Made by a program: the position numbers and the translations under genes. A model generated the notes under the pieces. It was not told where the DNA came from. It saw nothing but the letters and a program-made list of their open reading frames with translations, and ran no database searches. Of a DNA stretch of 64,000 nt, positions 28,088 to 61,986 are shown in pieces (the first letter of the stretch is position 1; each line of letters begins with the position of its first letter). The stretch is from assembly GCA_001839685.1 (NCBI GenBank), contig MLAK01001271.1, positions 55,604 through 119,603 of the forward strand. Direction: 5' to 3'. This DNA is from Tritrichomonas foetus. Its lineage: Eukaryota; Parabasalia; Tritrichomonadida; Tritrichomonadidae.

Positions 28088-31000
28088 TTATTTCTTCTCA
28101 ACGAGATAAGTGATTGTATTCCCATTTTTGATTTCAATTTCACCTCTTTCTTGTATCTTGAAATTACCTCCATAAATTAATTCATAAACAGCACGAGAAA
28201 TGTGAACTTTCATAGGAACTCCATGATGTTCCATTTGTTGGGCCATGTTGATTGTTGGACCAAGAATTTCAAATGTTGGTTTTTCTGTTCCAAGAACGCC
28301 AGCAACGATAGGTCCACCTGTATTTACACCAACACGAATTCTTAACGATTGGTTTATTTTTTCATTCAATACTTGAATTGCATCAATTGCATCTAAGCCA
28401 AATTCAACAACATCCTTTGCATGAGTTGCAGGCTGATTAACCTCCATGAAAATTCCACCTGCTGCCATGTAGCAATCACCAATGCATTTAATTTTAGTCA
28501 TGGTTGTATGAATTTGTGTTAATGCATCAAATTCTTTAAACAACATGTTCAATGTTTTCATGACAGTTGCTGCAGGTAATGAGCCACACCATGGAGTGAA
28601 TGAAACAATATCCATGAAGACAATTGTAACACTTTGTACAGCAAATGAAATGTCTTTTTCGCCTGCTGCAACACGAGCTACTAATCTTGGTGGTAAGATA
28701 GAGCTAAGTAATTGATCACTTTTTGCTTTCTCTTCTTGGATAAGTTTATCATACATAACACTTTGTGTTATATCTCTCGAAACAACGAAGAGCCATTCTG
28801 CCATAACGACGAATTGCATTTCAACGTATTTTTCACCACCATCTTTATTTTTGAAGTAGAGATCATTTCTTTCAAATGTTTTCTTTTCAACACCTGGTGC
28901 AAAAATGCCCTTGAATGGATTTTCATTCTCGAATATATCACCAAGCTTTTCAATATGATTTCCGATAAGGTCTTCTTTCGTAAGTGAATGGAAAATTCGC
29001 TCAGTTGATTTATTAGCAGAGATAATGGTTCCATCAACTTTAAGAATAATCATAGAATCAGGCATTTCTTCAACCAAGTTGTCATAAAAATCGGAATCAC
29101 GTGTTGTAAAATCAACGCTTGATTGTTTAAAGTTGCCGGATAAAATGCTTGTAACATTGGTGTTACTTAGAACAACTTTTCCTGGACAGTGAAGCAAAAG
29201 TGTTAGTGCAAATCTCTGTTTTGCCTCAGATTGGCTCAATGCATAGAAATACAAGCCAATAATGCATAAAACAAGAAATGCCACAAGATAGCTAGCTAAG
29301 TTCATTGTTGAAGTTCGAGCTTCCATAGAATCAACAACAAGTCTAGCTACTTCTTGGAAAAGTGGATAATAGAATTGATCAAAAATATGAACCATATAAA
29401 TATGATAAATATGTGTCAAGTATTCGCTGTTACCTGCGAAAATAGCATGATTTGGTGTATTCTTGTAAATGTTAACAAGATTATTGATAAGTAATTCGCA
29501 GTAAGCCATAGTAGCTTCAGATGTCATACAATTATAAACTTCATGAAGATTTGTTGGATTGAAATTATTATCACATCTAGCACTACTTACAATTGATTCA
29601 ATATCAATTCCTAATGCAGCGAATGATGGTGCATTGTTAGCTTCATCACCGTATTTAACATATGAGAATTCATTTTGTCCTTGAGTTTGCCAGTCATTAA
29701 TTACTCCAAGAATAGAATCTCTGTCAAATCCACGGCTTTCAAAATTAACTGATGGGAAAACAGCACCTGGTAATAAATGAATAAGAATAACTGATGCAAA
29801 TTCATAAGTGTATGATGCATAAATATGATCAACATGTGGTGATGTTTGATCAAGTTGATTACCAGCATTCTTAAAGCACAGAACTAAGTAGATACACATA
29901 GCAATTTGAGCAACAGCAATAACTATGCTCACTAGAATTGTGATAACGTTATCGAGAGTTTTACTGCCTCCAGAATCTGAAGAAGTAGAGAATAATTTCA
30001 ATAAATTTTCTTCTTGCTTGCTTAATTCTTCATCTCGTGATTTTGATGATCTTTCTTCGGATTCTTCTTTACGAAGAATTTTGAATTGTTCAGCAACATG
30101 AGAAACCACACTTTTTTGAAGGGTTGTTAAACATTTATAAATAGTCATTTTATCTCTATTCATCGTTGTAATGATTACCGCAGTAACCACAGTATAAATA
30201 ATTGCTAATAATAAGCAAATGGCAATCATGGCATACAAGGTAATTTGTTTGATTCGTAAATTCACCTTATTGATATAGCTTAGCATAAGTTTGATATCTG
30301 AAGACAAAACATCAGACATTCCTCTTAAGTTGTTAACTGGTGTAACGAAGTATCTTTTATTGAAAACATCGATTGGTACTTGGGGAGTTGATAAAATTTC
30401 TTCGAACTGTGCAATGTATAAGGCAGATGCATCCATAATCGACATTTCTTCATAGGTAATGTTATATACAATTGTAGATCGGTTATTGGTCATATTATGC
30501 CAACCATCTAAATACGTTGGATCAGAATAGTGTGTGAAATTGAAACTTGGGGAAAAGAGCATTTCACGAACAGTGTCCATTGCTTCATTTCCTTTCTTGT
30601 AACTCATCATTGGCTGTAGAATGGCCAAAATCTCAGCAGTGTTTTGAGAAATGTATCTCAATTGTGTTTTTGTATCAAATGTGCCTCCCCATGCAGGCCC
30701 TGCTGTTTCATATTCATTTAAAGTGTCGCCAATGACTTCATATTTACTAAATGGGAAAAGAACTTGACCAGGGAAATTGGGATGATCATCTGGATATGAA
30801 ACTTCAAGATTCTCTCCTGCATAATGAATCATCACACCAAATGCTTGGAAAAGTGTTGCACGTAAGCGAGTAAGGCCATAAAGGTAATCTAATGACCCAG
30901 TGGTTTCATCAATGAAAATAGGTACACAAACTGTGATACAAATGTATGGAACAAGGAATAGAATCACATATAAAATAATATGAGTCCATCTTGCATTTGA

Positions 31001-32879
31001 ATATGAAGGAATTTTAATGTTTGTAATTGATTCTTTGATAGATGATTTCATTTCGGCGTCAATTGCTGCTTTTTCATCATCTCCTTCAATTTCTTGAGTC
31101 AATGTATCTTCAGTTGTGTTTGCAATTGGATTTTGTGCAATATTTTGAGGGACATCGAGTTGCTTGGGTAAAAGTGGAAAAGCTAAAAGTCCAAGATCAT
31201 GCGAATTATCAGGTGTAACCATCATGCCACGTTGTAAATTTGATACTTTTTGTCCCCATTCTTGGTGTCCTTCATGATCAGCAACAACATCTCTTAAAAA
31301 TCTGGCGTAAGCACGTGCAACAAAGCGATTGTTTGGAAACATGCCTAATAGATGAACAAAGTTTACATTTGTAGTTGTAATTGATTCATATGCACGTCCA
31401 ATAATTGGTTCGAGTTCTTTAACATTTCCTTGAAGGACAAGATCCCAAATATACCTAATTTTCGCTTTAGTCGATTGAACTTTTCTTCCAATGTTATCTA
31501 ATTTTGTTTTTAATTCAGGAATTAAATTCGCTTCACGTTGTTTAATGACCGCTTCTATTTGTTGCATTGTATGTTTAGCAAAACTGCCTTTCATTTTATT
31601 TTGCATCATACCGACTTCGATATAAGCTAATTGCTGGGTTTCTTCTGGGTATATTGCTGAAAATTTAGCAAATAAGAGCCATACATCATATGATTTGGGC
31701 CACCTTTCAATTGCTAATTTGAAAATTGTAAATGAGAGACAATAAGGATGTGCATTTCGGAATCCATCCACAACGATAGATGAAAATTTAAAAGGTGATC
31801 GAATTGAAGCATCAAAGCTTTCTGGATCTTCCATAATTTGATCCAAAAGAAGTAATGAACGCGAAACTCGGTGATTAAAAATAAAATTAGTAATCAAATA
31901 GCAGAAAAGCCAAACAACAATAAACACAACAATTATGATTTCATTGGCTTGACGATCAATGACTTCATATATAGCGACAATAATGCATAAAATAATACCT
32001 GAAACAGAAGTTGCAACCATTGCTTTAAGATGTGTTAAACTGACAAATCCACCTTTACTGAAGAAAACAAAAATCGAGATGAAATAAGAAGCTGCTGCAA
32101 GCAAATTAAAAATTAATGAAAAAATCGAACCTGGGATTTTTGAACCACATGCTGGAAAGAAAGTAATGATTAAATATAAGGCTGTAATGGTACTTTGATT
32201 AGTTGGAATAATTGTCATAAGTGAATCTGATCGAAAATTGATTGTAACTGAATAACCCAATGTGTAAATAACCACAAAGATGAAAAATGAAAAATAGTGC
32301 GAAAATGATACCAAAAATACGAAGTGCTGTAGCTTCACTACCATCATGAATCATATAGCCGACTAATTCACCAATAAAGTTCATTCCGATTGGTGGCAAT
32401 ATATAGCCAAATGTAGAGAATATAAAAAATATTGCTGTTGGTATATAACTGGGTAGTTGTGCATGCTTTTCATAATATTGTGCAGCGAAAAAAACGAATA
32501 AAATTAATAACAAAAAGAAGCATCCTTCGCCTATCAAAAAAAATGGCGCCACTCTCTTTCTCAAGTCTTCACCTGGAAAGATATGGAATAAAATTGAAAC
32601 GATATCCATTGTTTTCAGCATATTCGAGCCTGGGCCCCAAAAAGTTGTATAGCCAACACAGAGCGATGGGCCAATAAGCTCAATGATACGCCATACTGAA
32701 ATGAAGTTTTGGAGTCCTCTCATTTGAGGTGCAACTACTGCGATATAGTCGAATAATCTGAATAAGAGATTTCGATAGGTCTTCAAAGGCTTCTCTTTAA
32801 TGAGACCTTTGTAGCGTCGTGAAAAACTCCCGGAATTGAAAGAGTTTGAAGTAAATCCGGTGGATGAAGACACTTTCAT
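28088..32879 (-). CDS. Transmembrane PAS-nucleotidyl cyclase (class III), one frameshift
   Basis: Membrane-bound cyclase of about 1600 residues, typical of trichomonads. The ATG at 32877-32879 starts MKVSSSTG, matching the paralogue at 57324 (MESSTIS). The upstream frame extends only through TTG. The frame changes once between about 32275 and 32297, in a run of TTTTTCATTTTTC inside a membrane helix. Both sides align with the intact paralogue, so this is one gene with a 1-nt error or mutation. Layout: about six to eight N-terminal helices; a cytosolic block with AHPYC and IYPEET motifs; two further helix-ectodomain-helix units; a PAS domain (about 28950-29080); and a cyclase domain (about 28100-28690). 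Metal Asp residues are present in FMDIVSFT and KCIGDCYMAAGG. The purine-specifying Lys is kept. The transition-state motif reads INMAQQM, with Gln where Arg is usual. Product (cAMP or cGMP) undecided. Confidence 0.85.
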
Positions 32880-32968
32880 AATCTTTCTGGAAATATTTGA
32901 TTCGGAATCTGTTTTCAATTCGCTCCACTTTTTCAGAAAGAATTTAAATAAATACTACTTAATAATAT
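32880..32968. promoter_or_regulatory. Truncated 5' region of cyclase gene
   Basis: Only 89 bp separate the cyclase ATG from the target duplication of mobile element copy 1. No TCA(C/T) initiator is visible in this stretch, so the promoter is weak, cryptic or provided by the element. Confidence 0.4.
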
Positions 32969-32976
32969 GTTTACGA

Positions 32977-34079
32977 AGATGTATACAAACTAACTAGCTC
33001 TAGATGTAGAAGACTATTGAGAGATCTAAATGAATAATTGTTGATATTATTGTCATCTAAAAAATATTTAATTGTAATCCTATTAATAATATATAAATAT
33101 TATAATTTAATAATCAAGATACAGAGAAAACCAAATCCAAAAAAAAATTGTGAGAAAAAAATAAACCCCACAGAAATTTCTGAGAATTATAGAGATAAAA
33201 AGTGATTTTATAGCATTAATATCTTGATTATTTCTTATCNCTTATCATAAATCGTGCTTTTTATTATCATATGACCCTCCATCGAAAATTATAATGTTTT
33301 CCAAAATACAAAAATGAAGTATAAAAAAAATATTAATAATTTTGATATAAATAAAAAAAATTTAGGCATCAATGAGAAGATTACGAATGTTTTGCCATCT
33401 AAATGGCGAGTCATCAGAAAATTCACTTGGCATCGAGTCTGGAAAAAAACATATTGGATTCCATTTTTCTTGATTTGGTCTTTCAATCGTTGTATCTGTA
33501 TCCCTGCTTGAGAATGTGCTGTTGAGGACTGCCAGTCTATTTTCTTCATATACTAAAATTTTATGACAGAAAAGATTTCAATACATTCATATTTGTCAAA
33601 TGGAAATTGAATTAATTCAACATCACTGAGTTAAAACTATCAAAATTTTCGCGATTTTTAATTAAAAATCGATAGAAGAAGTGTAAATAGAATTATGGGA
33701 AGCAGTATTATAATCTTTGTGATTCTTGGAAAAAAAGCTTCTCACAATTTTTTTTTAGGCTTTCTCCAAAATCGCTCTTTTTTCGGTTTAATTGTTGCAA
33801 AATTTCAAAACTATGAATAAATATGGCTCATAACTATAAAAAATAGATTTAACAATTGACTGAAAGCTGTTCACCCGAAAACTGAAACAATAGCTTCTTC
33901 AGAATCATTTTCGAAATATTTTTGAATTCGGCCATTTGCGAAGTTTGCGATAAGGGAAATTTTCGTCATTCTTTTAGCTATTTGGGTTTTGATTTTTGAC
34001 TGATGGTATTAAGTAATACTGATGATAAGGATCATTTTAGTGATTTCGTACGTTAAGACTATTTGGTTTGTATACATCT
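32977..34079. mobile_element. Non-autonomous DNA transposon, copy 1 (1103 bp)
   Basis: The left end AGATGTATACAAAC (32977-32990) is the exact inverse of the right end GTTTGTATACATCT (34066-34079), with imperfect pairing to about 21 bp. It is flanked by the 8-bp duplication GTTTACGA (32969-32976 and 34080-34087). The second copy is at 60825-61920, differing by about ten substitutions and a 7-bp insertion ending in N at 33240 (CTTATCN), probably an assembly artefact. An 8-bp duplication is used by the hAT, P and Merlin superfamilies and sometimes by Mutator-like elements. The family cannot be fixed without a transposase. Confidence 0.92.
33289..33577 (-). pseudogene. Decayed reading frames inside element copy 1
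   Basis: On the minus strand an 86-codon ATG frame (33549-33289, starting MKKIDWQSSTAHSQ) overlaps a second open frame (33577-33362, 71 codons plus stop, containing MPSEFSDDSPFRWQNIRN). The second has more balanced composition. Further open blocks lie upstream in shifting frames (around 33640-33800 and 33850-33990). This looks like a degraded gene, either a transposase or a captured host sequence. The same stops and frame changes occur in copy 2. Confidence 0.4.
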
Positions 34080-34087
34080 GTTTACGA

Positions 34088-60816: not shown

Positions 60817-60824
60817 GGAAATAC

Positions 60825-61920
60825 AGATGTATACAAACTAACTAGCTCTAGATGTAGAAGACTATTGAGAGATCTAAATGAATAATTGTTGATATTATTG
60901 TCATCTAAATATTATTTAATTGTAATCCTATTAATAATATATAAATATTATAATTTAAAAATCAAGATACAGAGAAAACCAAATCCAAAAAAAAATTGTG
61001 AGAAAAAAATAAACCCCACAGAAATTTCTGAGAATTATAGAGATAAAAAGTGATTTTATAGCATTAATATCTTGATTATTTCTTATCATAAATCGTGCTT
61101 TTTATTATCATATGACCCTCCATCGAAAATTATAATGTTTTCCAAAATACAAAAATGAAGTATAAAAAAAATATTAATAATTTTGATATAAATAAAAAAA
61201 ATTTAGGCATCAATGAGAAGATTACGAATGTTTTGCCATCTAAATGGCGAGTCATCAGAAAATTCACTTGGCATTGAGTCTGGAAAAAAACATATTGTAT
61301 TCCATTTTTCTTGATTTGGTCTTTCAATCGTTGTATCTGTATCCCTGCTTGAGAATGTGCTGTTGAGGACTGCCAGTCTATTTTCTTCATATACTAAAAT
61401 TTTATGACAGAAAAGATTTCAATACATTCATATTTGTCAAATGGAAATTGAATTAATTCANCATCACTGAGTTAAAACTATCAAAATTTTCGCGATTTTT
61501 AATTAAAAATCGATAGAAGAAGTGTAAATAGAATTATGGGAAGCAGTATTATAATCTTTGTGATTCTTGGNAAAAAAGCTTCTCTCAATTTTTTTTTATG
61601 CTTTCTCCAAAATCGCTCTTTTTTCGGTTTAATTGTTGCAAAATTTCAAAACTATGAATAAATATGGCTCATAACTATAAAANATAGATTTAACAATTGA
61701 CTGAAAGCTGTTCACCCGAAAACTGAAACAATAGCTTCTTCAGAATCATTTTCGAAATATTTTTGAATTCGGCCATTTGCGAAGTTTGCGATAAGGGAAA
61801 TTTTCGTCATTCTTTTAGCTATTTGGGTTTTGATTTTTGACTGATGGTATTAAGTAATACTGATGATAAGGATCATTTTAGTGATTTCGTACGTTAAGAC
61901 TATTTGGTTTGTATACATCT
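60825..61920. mobile_element. Non-autonomous DNA transposon, copy 2 (1096 bp)
   Basis: Same element as 32977-34079, in the same orientation. Termini are AGATGTATACAAAC (60825-60838) and GTTTGTATACATCT (61907-61920). It is flanked by a different 8-bp duplication, GGAAATAC (60817-60824 and 61921-61928), which proves an independent insertion. Ns at 61461, 61571 and 61683 reflect unresolved differences between repeat copies. The right end is 66 bp from the lipase ATG. Confidence 0.93.
61130..61418 (-). pseudogene. Decayed reading frames inside element copy 2
   Basis: The 86-codon frame (61390-61130) and the overlapping second frame ending at the stop 61205-61203 match those of copy 1, with two visible substitutions. 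One changes the residue after FFQT from Arg to Gln. The shared disruptions show that decay came before duplication. Confidence 0.4.
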
Positions 61921-61986
61921 GGAAATACTGAAAATTTGTGAAATTGTTCAATTTTTTTTGAAAAGAATAATCCTGCAAAAAAGATA

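Follow-up and report, generated by a model that had tools for sequence, protein, structure and literature searches.

The element that occupies one site in a 64,000-nucleotide stretch of Tritrichomonas foetus DNA (this whole stretch being referred to below as the window) very probably belongs to a non-autonomous transposon family of the P superfamily that has several hundred copies and arose by internal deletion of a transposase-bearing P element. The evidence for this reading comes from the structure of two copies within the window, from a survey of further copies throughout the draft genome, and from a single longer relative that shares the ends of the common element and harbors pieces of a transposase gene between them.

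Structure of the element in the window

When one mismatch was allowed, the 14-base sequence AGATGTATACAAAC was matched at four places in the window, all of them exact, as compared to a mean of 0.02 matches in shuffled sequence, and the two pairs formed by those matches are therefore not the product of chance. The first pair encloses copy 1, for which the 14-bp terminal inverted repeats and 8-bp target duplication reported in a first-pass annotation proved exact to the base; the second delimits a further copy with the same ends, also reported in that annotation, that is flanked by its own duplication (Table 1). Over 21 bp, the left and right ends of the element are identical at 19 positions. 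An 18-bp subterminal inverted repeat is perfect in copy 1 and 94% conserved in copy 2; because 24 inverted pairs were listed in the AT-rich copy 2, this one among them and possibly due to chance, its putative role is suggested by its likeness to the arrangement of the P element.

Two additional observations were made by inspection in and near copy 1. The 7 bp by which that copy exceeds the usual length of 1096 bp correspond to a CTTATC repeat around an N at positions 33235-33247, and are possibly an assembly artefact. Beside the copy, positions 28088-32918 of the minus strand contain a 1419-residue open reading frame (ORF) that resembles a transmembrane adenylyl cyclase and that overlaps an upstream ORF out of frame; a frame change in the draft may have split a single gene in two.

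Table 1. Positions of the two element copies and their parts in the window
Feature	Position	Strand	Basis or remark
Left target-site duplication of copy 1, GTTTACGA	32969..32976	no strand	
Element copy 1, non-autonomous, most likely P superfamily, 1103 bp	32977..34079	+	
Left 14-bp terminal inverted repeat of copy 1, AGATGTATACAAAC	32977..32990	+	
Left arm of the 18-bp subterminal inverted repeat, copy 1	33139..33156	+	162 bp from left end
3'-end remnant of transposase gene (frame WNPICFF...NLLIDA, stop)	33362..33463	-	same frame in C546
Internal-deletion junction, between 33469 and 33470	33461..33470	no strand	TTTC on either side in longer copy
5'-end remnant of transposase gene (MKKIDWQSS..., coiled-coil-like)	33471..33549	-	start codon at 33549
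Right arm of the subterminal inverted repeat, copy 1	33739..33756	-	323 bp from right end
Right 14-bp terminal inverted repeat of copy 1, reverse complement of AGATGTATACAAAC	34066..34079	-	
Right target-site duplication of copy 1, GTTTACGA	34080..34087	no strand	
Left target-site duplication of copy 2, GGAAATAC	60817..60824	no strand	
Element copy 2, 1096 bp	60825..61920	+	10 mismatches and one gap relative to copy 1
Right target-site duplication of copy 2, GGAAATAC	61921..61928	no strand	

Abundance, target-site duplications and recent spread

A search with the termini, which the first-pass annotation had proposed, was conducted across the draft genome of T. foetus (63.7 Mb in 1064 contigs), and returned 486 exact left ends (using a 21-base pattern of terminal and some subterminal bases) and 521 exact right ends (using a 29-base pattern); the main deletion junction is present in 443 exact copies. 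Fifty-five distinct complete copies were read, with the remaining several hundred counted by pattern only. By size, 33 of those read are approximately 1096 bp in length (1066-1103) and 20 are approximately 1258 bp (1255-1260), accompanied by single copies of 1567 and 1301 bp. The 33 short copies differ by a mean of 0.78% and at most by 1.65%, and this low average divergence argues that the burst was recent.

Target-site duplications were analyzed for the 51 copies that possess both flanks, the other four of the 55 having either no flank on one side or an N at that place. Aligning these flanks, as had likewise been proposed, yielded an exact duplication of 8 bp in 45 copies and of 9 bp in three, together with a 6-bp duplication in one copy and none in two. 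Of the 2805 possible left-right pairings, 8 or more bases agree in 48, as expected if only the two flanks of the same copy match.

The same flanks bear on the notion that the copies were spread by segmental duplication, or represent an assembly artefact, rather than having transposed. The fragmentation of the draft, with gaps within or beside some copies, lends it something, but 48 of 51 copies carry an exact duplication of their own, and among 106 flanks from the 55 copies the sole cross-match involves one pair of neighbouring copies, in which the same 268 bp lie between them. The probability of such an origin is negligible, and for the copies that were read, segmental duplication (for which shared flanking DNA had been named as the sign) is excluded by their unrelated flanks.

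Two peculiar sites were encountered in the course of this survey. At one of them (L101, C101:82200-82400) three tandem units of the left terminal repeat are found, one of which carries a substitution. At the other (L041), a further element, recognized by eye, is inserted near the left end of one copy; it is approximately 300 bp long, is bounded by GGCAG termini, has a 9-bp duplication, TAGAGCTAG, and is possibly Mutator-like, judging only from the length of that duplication.

A longer copy and the origin of the short element

The first-pass annotation had also anticipated a longer relative with a transposase, and this expectation was borne out in part: a 2109-bp element on another contig (C546:11545-13653) carries pieces of a P-type transposase, and the draft assembly yielded neither an intact transposase gene nor an autonomous copy of the family. 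The short element matches the outer parts of this copy at 97-99% identity, and between those parts the minus strand contains an open transposase piece of 219 residues along with a C-terminal piece; the short element retains the end of the latter's frame. The copy is broken, having stops in frame and pieces in different frames, as well as an apparent internal deletion that was recognized by eye in comparison with a related protein (P0004); its right end is without the last 4 bp of the terminal repeat, and 7 of the 8 flanking bases are still repeated. The 219-residue piece has a full-length match in the genome at this locus only, and is identical to a public protein record, TRFO_32366. That record is placed on a contig of 45,376 bp, as opposed to 38,834 bp for C546, and its source may be another version of the same contig or a second copy.

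Because the longer copy shares the ends of the short element and carries transposase pieces between them, the common element can be recognized from this comparison of sequences as a P element that has lost internal sequence. It retains the two extremities of the transposase gene, first and last codons included, and the catalytic region is gone; the sequence TTTC lies on both sides of its junction, as seen in the longer copy. Further internal deletions are displayed by the 1258-bp class, by one additional copy (L061) and by C546 itself. One copy (L016) is longer than the short copies by 160 bp, and this 160-bp piece of the gene, which is absent from the short copies, is found at 23 places in the genome.

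Probable assignment to the P superfamily

The longer copy also provides the basis for the assignment of the superfamily, which is most likely P, since its transposase pieces contain P-type domains. In the 219-residue piece, the Pfam model PF12017 (Tnp_P_element) scores 28.1 bits against a cut-off of 23 (2.7e-6), and PF21787 (TNP-like_RNaseH_N) scores 24.8 bits against 24.6 (2.9e-5), a margin of 0.2 bits. When the whole genome was scanned with both models, C546 alone was above both cut-offs, accompanied by C310 for PF12017. In addition to these domains (a P-type helix-turn-helix, HTH, and, narrowly, the N-terminal half of an RNase H fold), the element displays the 8-bp duplication and the terminal and subterminal inverted repeats of the P superfamily. 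C546, which is the sole transposase-bearing copy found, shows neither the GTP-binding insertion nor the second half of RNase H with its third acidic residue.

The first-pass annotation had regarded the element as a DNA transposon that was neither mariner nor hAT, and this view is upheld: its duplications are varied and 8 bp in length, rather than the TA of Tc1/mariner, and no hAT domain was matched in the partial transposase pieces scanned. A Mutator-like assignment is likewise disfavoured by the predominance of 8-bp duplications (45 of 51, against three of 9 bp) and, in the partial pieces available, by the lack of a MULE match.

Duplication length alone does not tell hAT, Merlin, KDZ and P apart, and it might accordingly be argued that the element belongs to another superfamily with duplications of approximately 8 bp, its P-like Pfam matches being a reflection of a common RNase H-like fold. 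Such an argument can draw upon the bare margin of PF21787 and upon a structure model of P0004 that more closely resembles other DDE transposases than that of P. It is nevertheless improbable, because two adjacent P-specific models are matched in the expected order within one protein, and because the Pfam scan of the partial transposase pieces of C546 returned no hAT, Merlin, MULE or KDZ match at E=10, a setting at which the HMMER filters still drop most matches above approximately 0.1. A P-like family in the same genome (L064/L065) points in the same direction, having 8-bp duplications; its terminal repeat, counted by eye, shares 9 or 10 of the 14 bases of the present one. Its own protein falls below the Pfam cut-offs.

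Related proteins and predicted structures were also considered. Three relatives (P0004-P0006, at 39-42% identity) share the acidic motifs LSxDA and ATDGDxGYN, a point in favour of P; all three fall below both Pfam cut-offs. The predicted structure of P0004 (a weak model, with a mean pLDDT of 56) follows an RNase H-like order, with acidic residues where they are expected, one aspartate lying close to where strand 1 ends and the other immediately following strand 4; its best matches in the PDB are chains of the ISCth4 transposase, followed by RAG1 and other RNase H-like proteins, and a P transposase does not appear among the best 50 of 768 structure matches. A model of a 783-residue relative was useless (mean pLDDT 30.5), and neither a sequence search of the PDB nor a search of NCBIfam produced a usable match in the former or any match in the latter. 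An N-terminal THAP DNA-binding domain is a feature of the animal members of the P superfamily, including the transposase of the Drosophila P element; none was found in the N-terminal piece examined here (P0007) or in a 45-residue frame upstream of it, where an upstream exon is possible.

Additional P-like transposases are encoded in the same genome. One locus (L065:519-2885, minus strand) contains an open frame of 789 residues within a 3479-bp element that is flanked by an 8-bp duplication, and others are found at L064, L066 and L068, with proteins below the Pfam cut-offs, although C310 lies slightly above that of PF12017 when the genome is scanned. As candidate sources of the element, L064/L065, L066 and L068 were rejected, since all are distant in sequence and the ends of L064/L065 differ.

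A composite with a second P-like family

The family represented by L065 (family 2, with the element of the window designated family 1) has the ends AAAAGTACAYAACC and the duplications TAAAATTA and AATTGATG, and includes non-autonomous copies of 895 bp, one of which matches the two end parts of L065 at 92% and 87% identity. At 45 places in the genome, a copy of family 2 directly follows AGATGTATACAAAC, the insertion lying after the 14th base of the family-1 left terminal repeat, with the nested copy flanked by an inner duplication ATACAAAC. All 45 have the same orientation, in a search that allowed both; the inner junction is also exact at 17 of them, and all 17 join the family-1 left end and none the right, in a search that again allowed both. 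When 16 further inner junctions were inspected by eye, eight continued into family-1 sequence, five fell in gaps and three ran into other sequence; the number of full composites is thus possibly below 45. Most of the remaining places with an outer junction lie at contig ends.

Seven composites were fetched (among L074-L080), of which one is truncated where its contig ends. The other six, for which both outer ends are present, comprise three clean copies of approximately 1999 bp, two with gaps, and one (L079) in which part of the left end has been replaced; the outer 8-bp duplications are exact in all six, and all are different. Amplification of one nested insertion fits these observations best, and it is somewhat favoured that a family-2 MITE was inserted once into the left terminal repeat of a family-1 element, and that the resulting composite was then amplified as a single transposon.

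A competing history, in which family 2 has inserted repeatedly and specifically into the family-1 left terminal repeat, would be compatible with the absence of common substitutions that separate composites from free family-2 copies (four of the former compared with three of the latter), and with the identity of the family-1 part of one composite to that of two plain copies. Against it stand the uniform orientation of the outer junctions and the uniform choice of the left end at the inner junctions, even though the same 14 bp are available at the right end, such that repeated targeting would need a specificity for both one end and one orientation. The individual outer duplications of the six composites, and the use of other targets by the three free family-2 copies that were read, also speak against repeated insertion, which is accordingly considered unlikely.

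If a single insertion was indeed followed by amplification, then a P-type end would function with only 14 contiguous terminal base pairs and with its own subterminal sequence displaced by approximately 900 bp; alternatively, a similar repeat in its neighbour would stand in. In either case, the composite would represent a natural test of the end requirements of a P-type transposase, and would raise the possibility of cross-mobilisation between two P-like families.

Insertion sites

Insertions of the element strongly avoid ORFs. When the empty site was rejoined, none of 51 sites was spanned by an ORF of at least 150 residues (or 100 residues where the ORF runs off the stretch); by comparison, in a background of 113 kb from eight stretches with 42 ORFs, the window included, approximately 31% of random positions are intergenic and approximately 70% lie in ORFs. 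Among 105 flanks, the nearest ORF end is a 5' end in 49 and a 3' end in 12, with no ORF in the other 44; counted per copy, the ratio is 40 to 7, and in the 24 copies with an ORF and with flanks of nearly equal length it is 25 flanks to 9. In the window, an ORF starts 97 bp from copy 1 and another 66 bp from copy 2.

The corresponding 5' share in the background is 52% when flanks are matched, and 0.63 when weighted by length (bootstrap 95% interval 0.43-0.78, from only 34 intergenic gaps), and 59 of 5000 bootstrap resamples reach at least the observed share of 0.80. With genes called at 200 residues, the background share is 0.59 and none of 5000 resamples reaches 0.80 (38 of 47 observed). Because the background is small, this lean towards the 5' ends of genes is suggestive. 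The insertion pattern may reflect selection or targeting. The palindromic target motif that is expected of P was not significant at these sites. The element end that faces the gene is more often the left (36) than the right (13); this apparent bias was set aside as largely an artefact of the longer left flanks that were fetched; in copies with flanks of nearly equal length the counts are 16 and 9.

Proposed mechanism and significance

In the mechanism proposed here, a P-type transposase acting in trans would have bound the ends of the short element, excised it, and joined it to a target cut with an 8-bp stagger, with insertion into intergenic DNA and perhaps a preference for the 5' ends of genes. 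The internal deletions may have resulted from faulty repair of the gap left by excision, with which the TTTC on either side of one junction is weakly consistent. Mobilisation of the element by other P-like families might also have contributed.

The assignment gives a superfamily to an abundant and recently active repeat of a cattle parasite, and its hundreds of recent insertions are candidates for differences in expression and between strains, as well as being usable as strain markers; all of the insertions that were read lie outside long ORFs, and many are apparently near gene starts. Habits of the P element that are familiar from insects, namely duplications of 8 bp, derivatives with internal deletions and insertion on the promoter side of genes, would thereby hold for a distantly related protist as well. 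The composite, for its part, amounts to a natural experiment on how the ends are recognized.

Comparison with known systems

The first-pass annotation suggested that the family may be undescribed; this can be upheld for the family at most, the superfamily itself being known. Within the open-licence papers of PubMed Central (Repbase and subscription journals lying beyond that search), none contains both 'Tritrichomonas foetus' and 'P element'. The name P.1N1, under Repbase naming, presumably denotes a non-autonomous P family. It is listed for Trichomonas vaginalis, with 164 annotated copies, in the available portion of one report (PMC7845603), and by that listing resembles the present element in being a P family with hundreds of copies in a parabasalid; the T. 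foetus element, in comparison with the listing rather than with a sequence, differs in its approximately 500 copies and its remnants of a transposase gene. Given these two results, and within the reach of the search, the element represents a new family of a type already known, and the composite is the most novel part. In the available part of a description of the chromosome-level T. foetus genome, DNA transposons account for approximately a third and unclassified repeats for approximately another 17%, with DNA transposons given as a class only (PMC11415386).

Within the P superfamily, for which a duplication of 8 bp is described in the excerpt consulted (PMC7776569), the Drosophila P element is similar to the present one in its 8-bp duplications, its terminal and subterminal repeats and its non-autonomous, internally deleted copies, and differs in having terminal repeats of 31 bp and internal repeats of 11 bp; its insertions are prevalent around promoters (PMC7776569). 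According to the same excerpt, the zebrafish P element/THAP9 also combines 8-bp duplications with a short terminal repeat (13 bp, 14 in T. foetus), a subterminal inverted repeat (12 bp, 18 in T. foetus) and multiple internally deleted copies (PMC7776569); it differs in having a THAP domain, which was not found in the readable part of the T. foetus gene.

A parallel in behavior may be drawn with the P-MITEs of Anopheles gambiae, which, in the portion of their description available, have 8-bp duplications, outnumber the transposase-bearing copies, and are in excess in the 5' flanks and in deficit in the 3' flanks of genes (PMC1562414). Apart from their insect host, they differ in being more diverged, with median pairwise identities of 80.7-95.9%, and in having a central region unlike that of any P element (PMC1562414), whereas the short element of T. 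foetus is collinear throughout with parts of the transposase-bearing copy.
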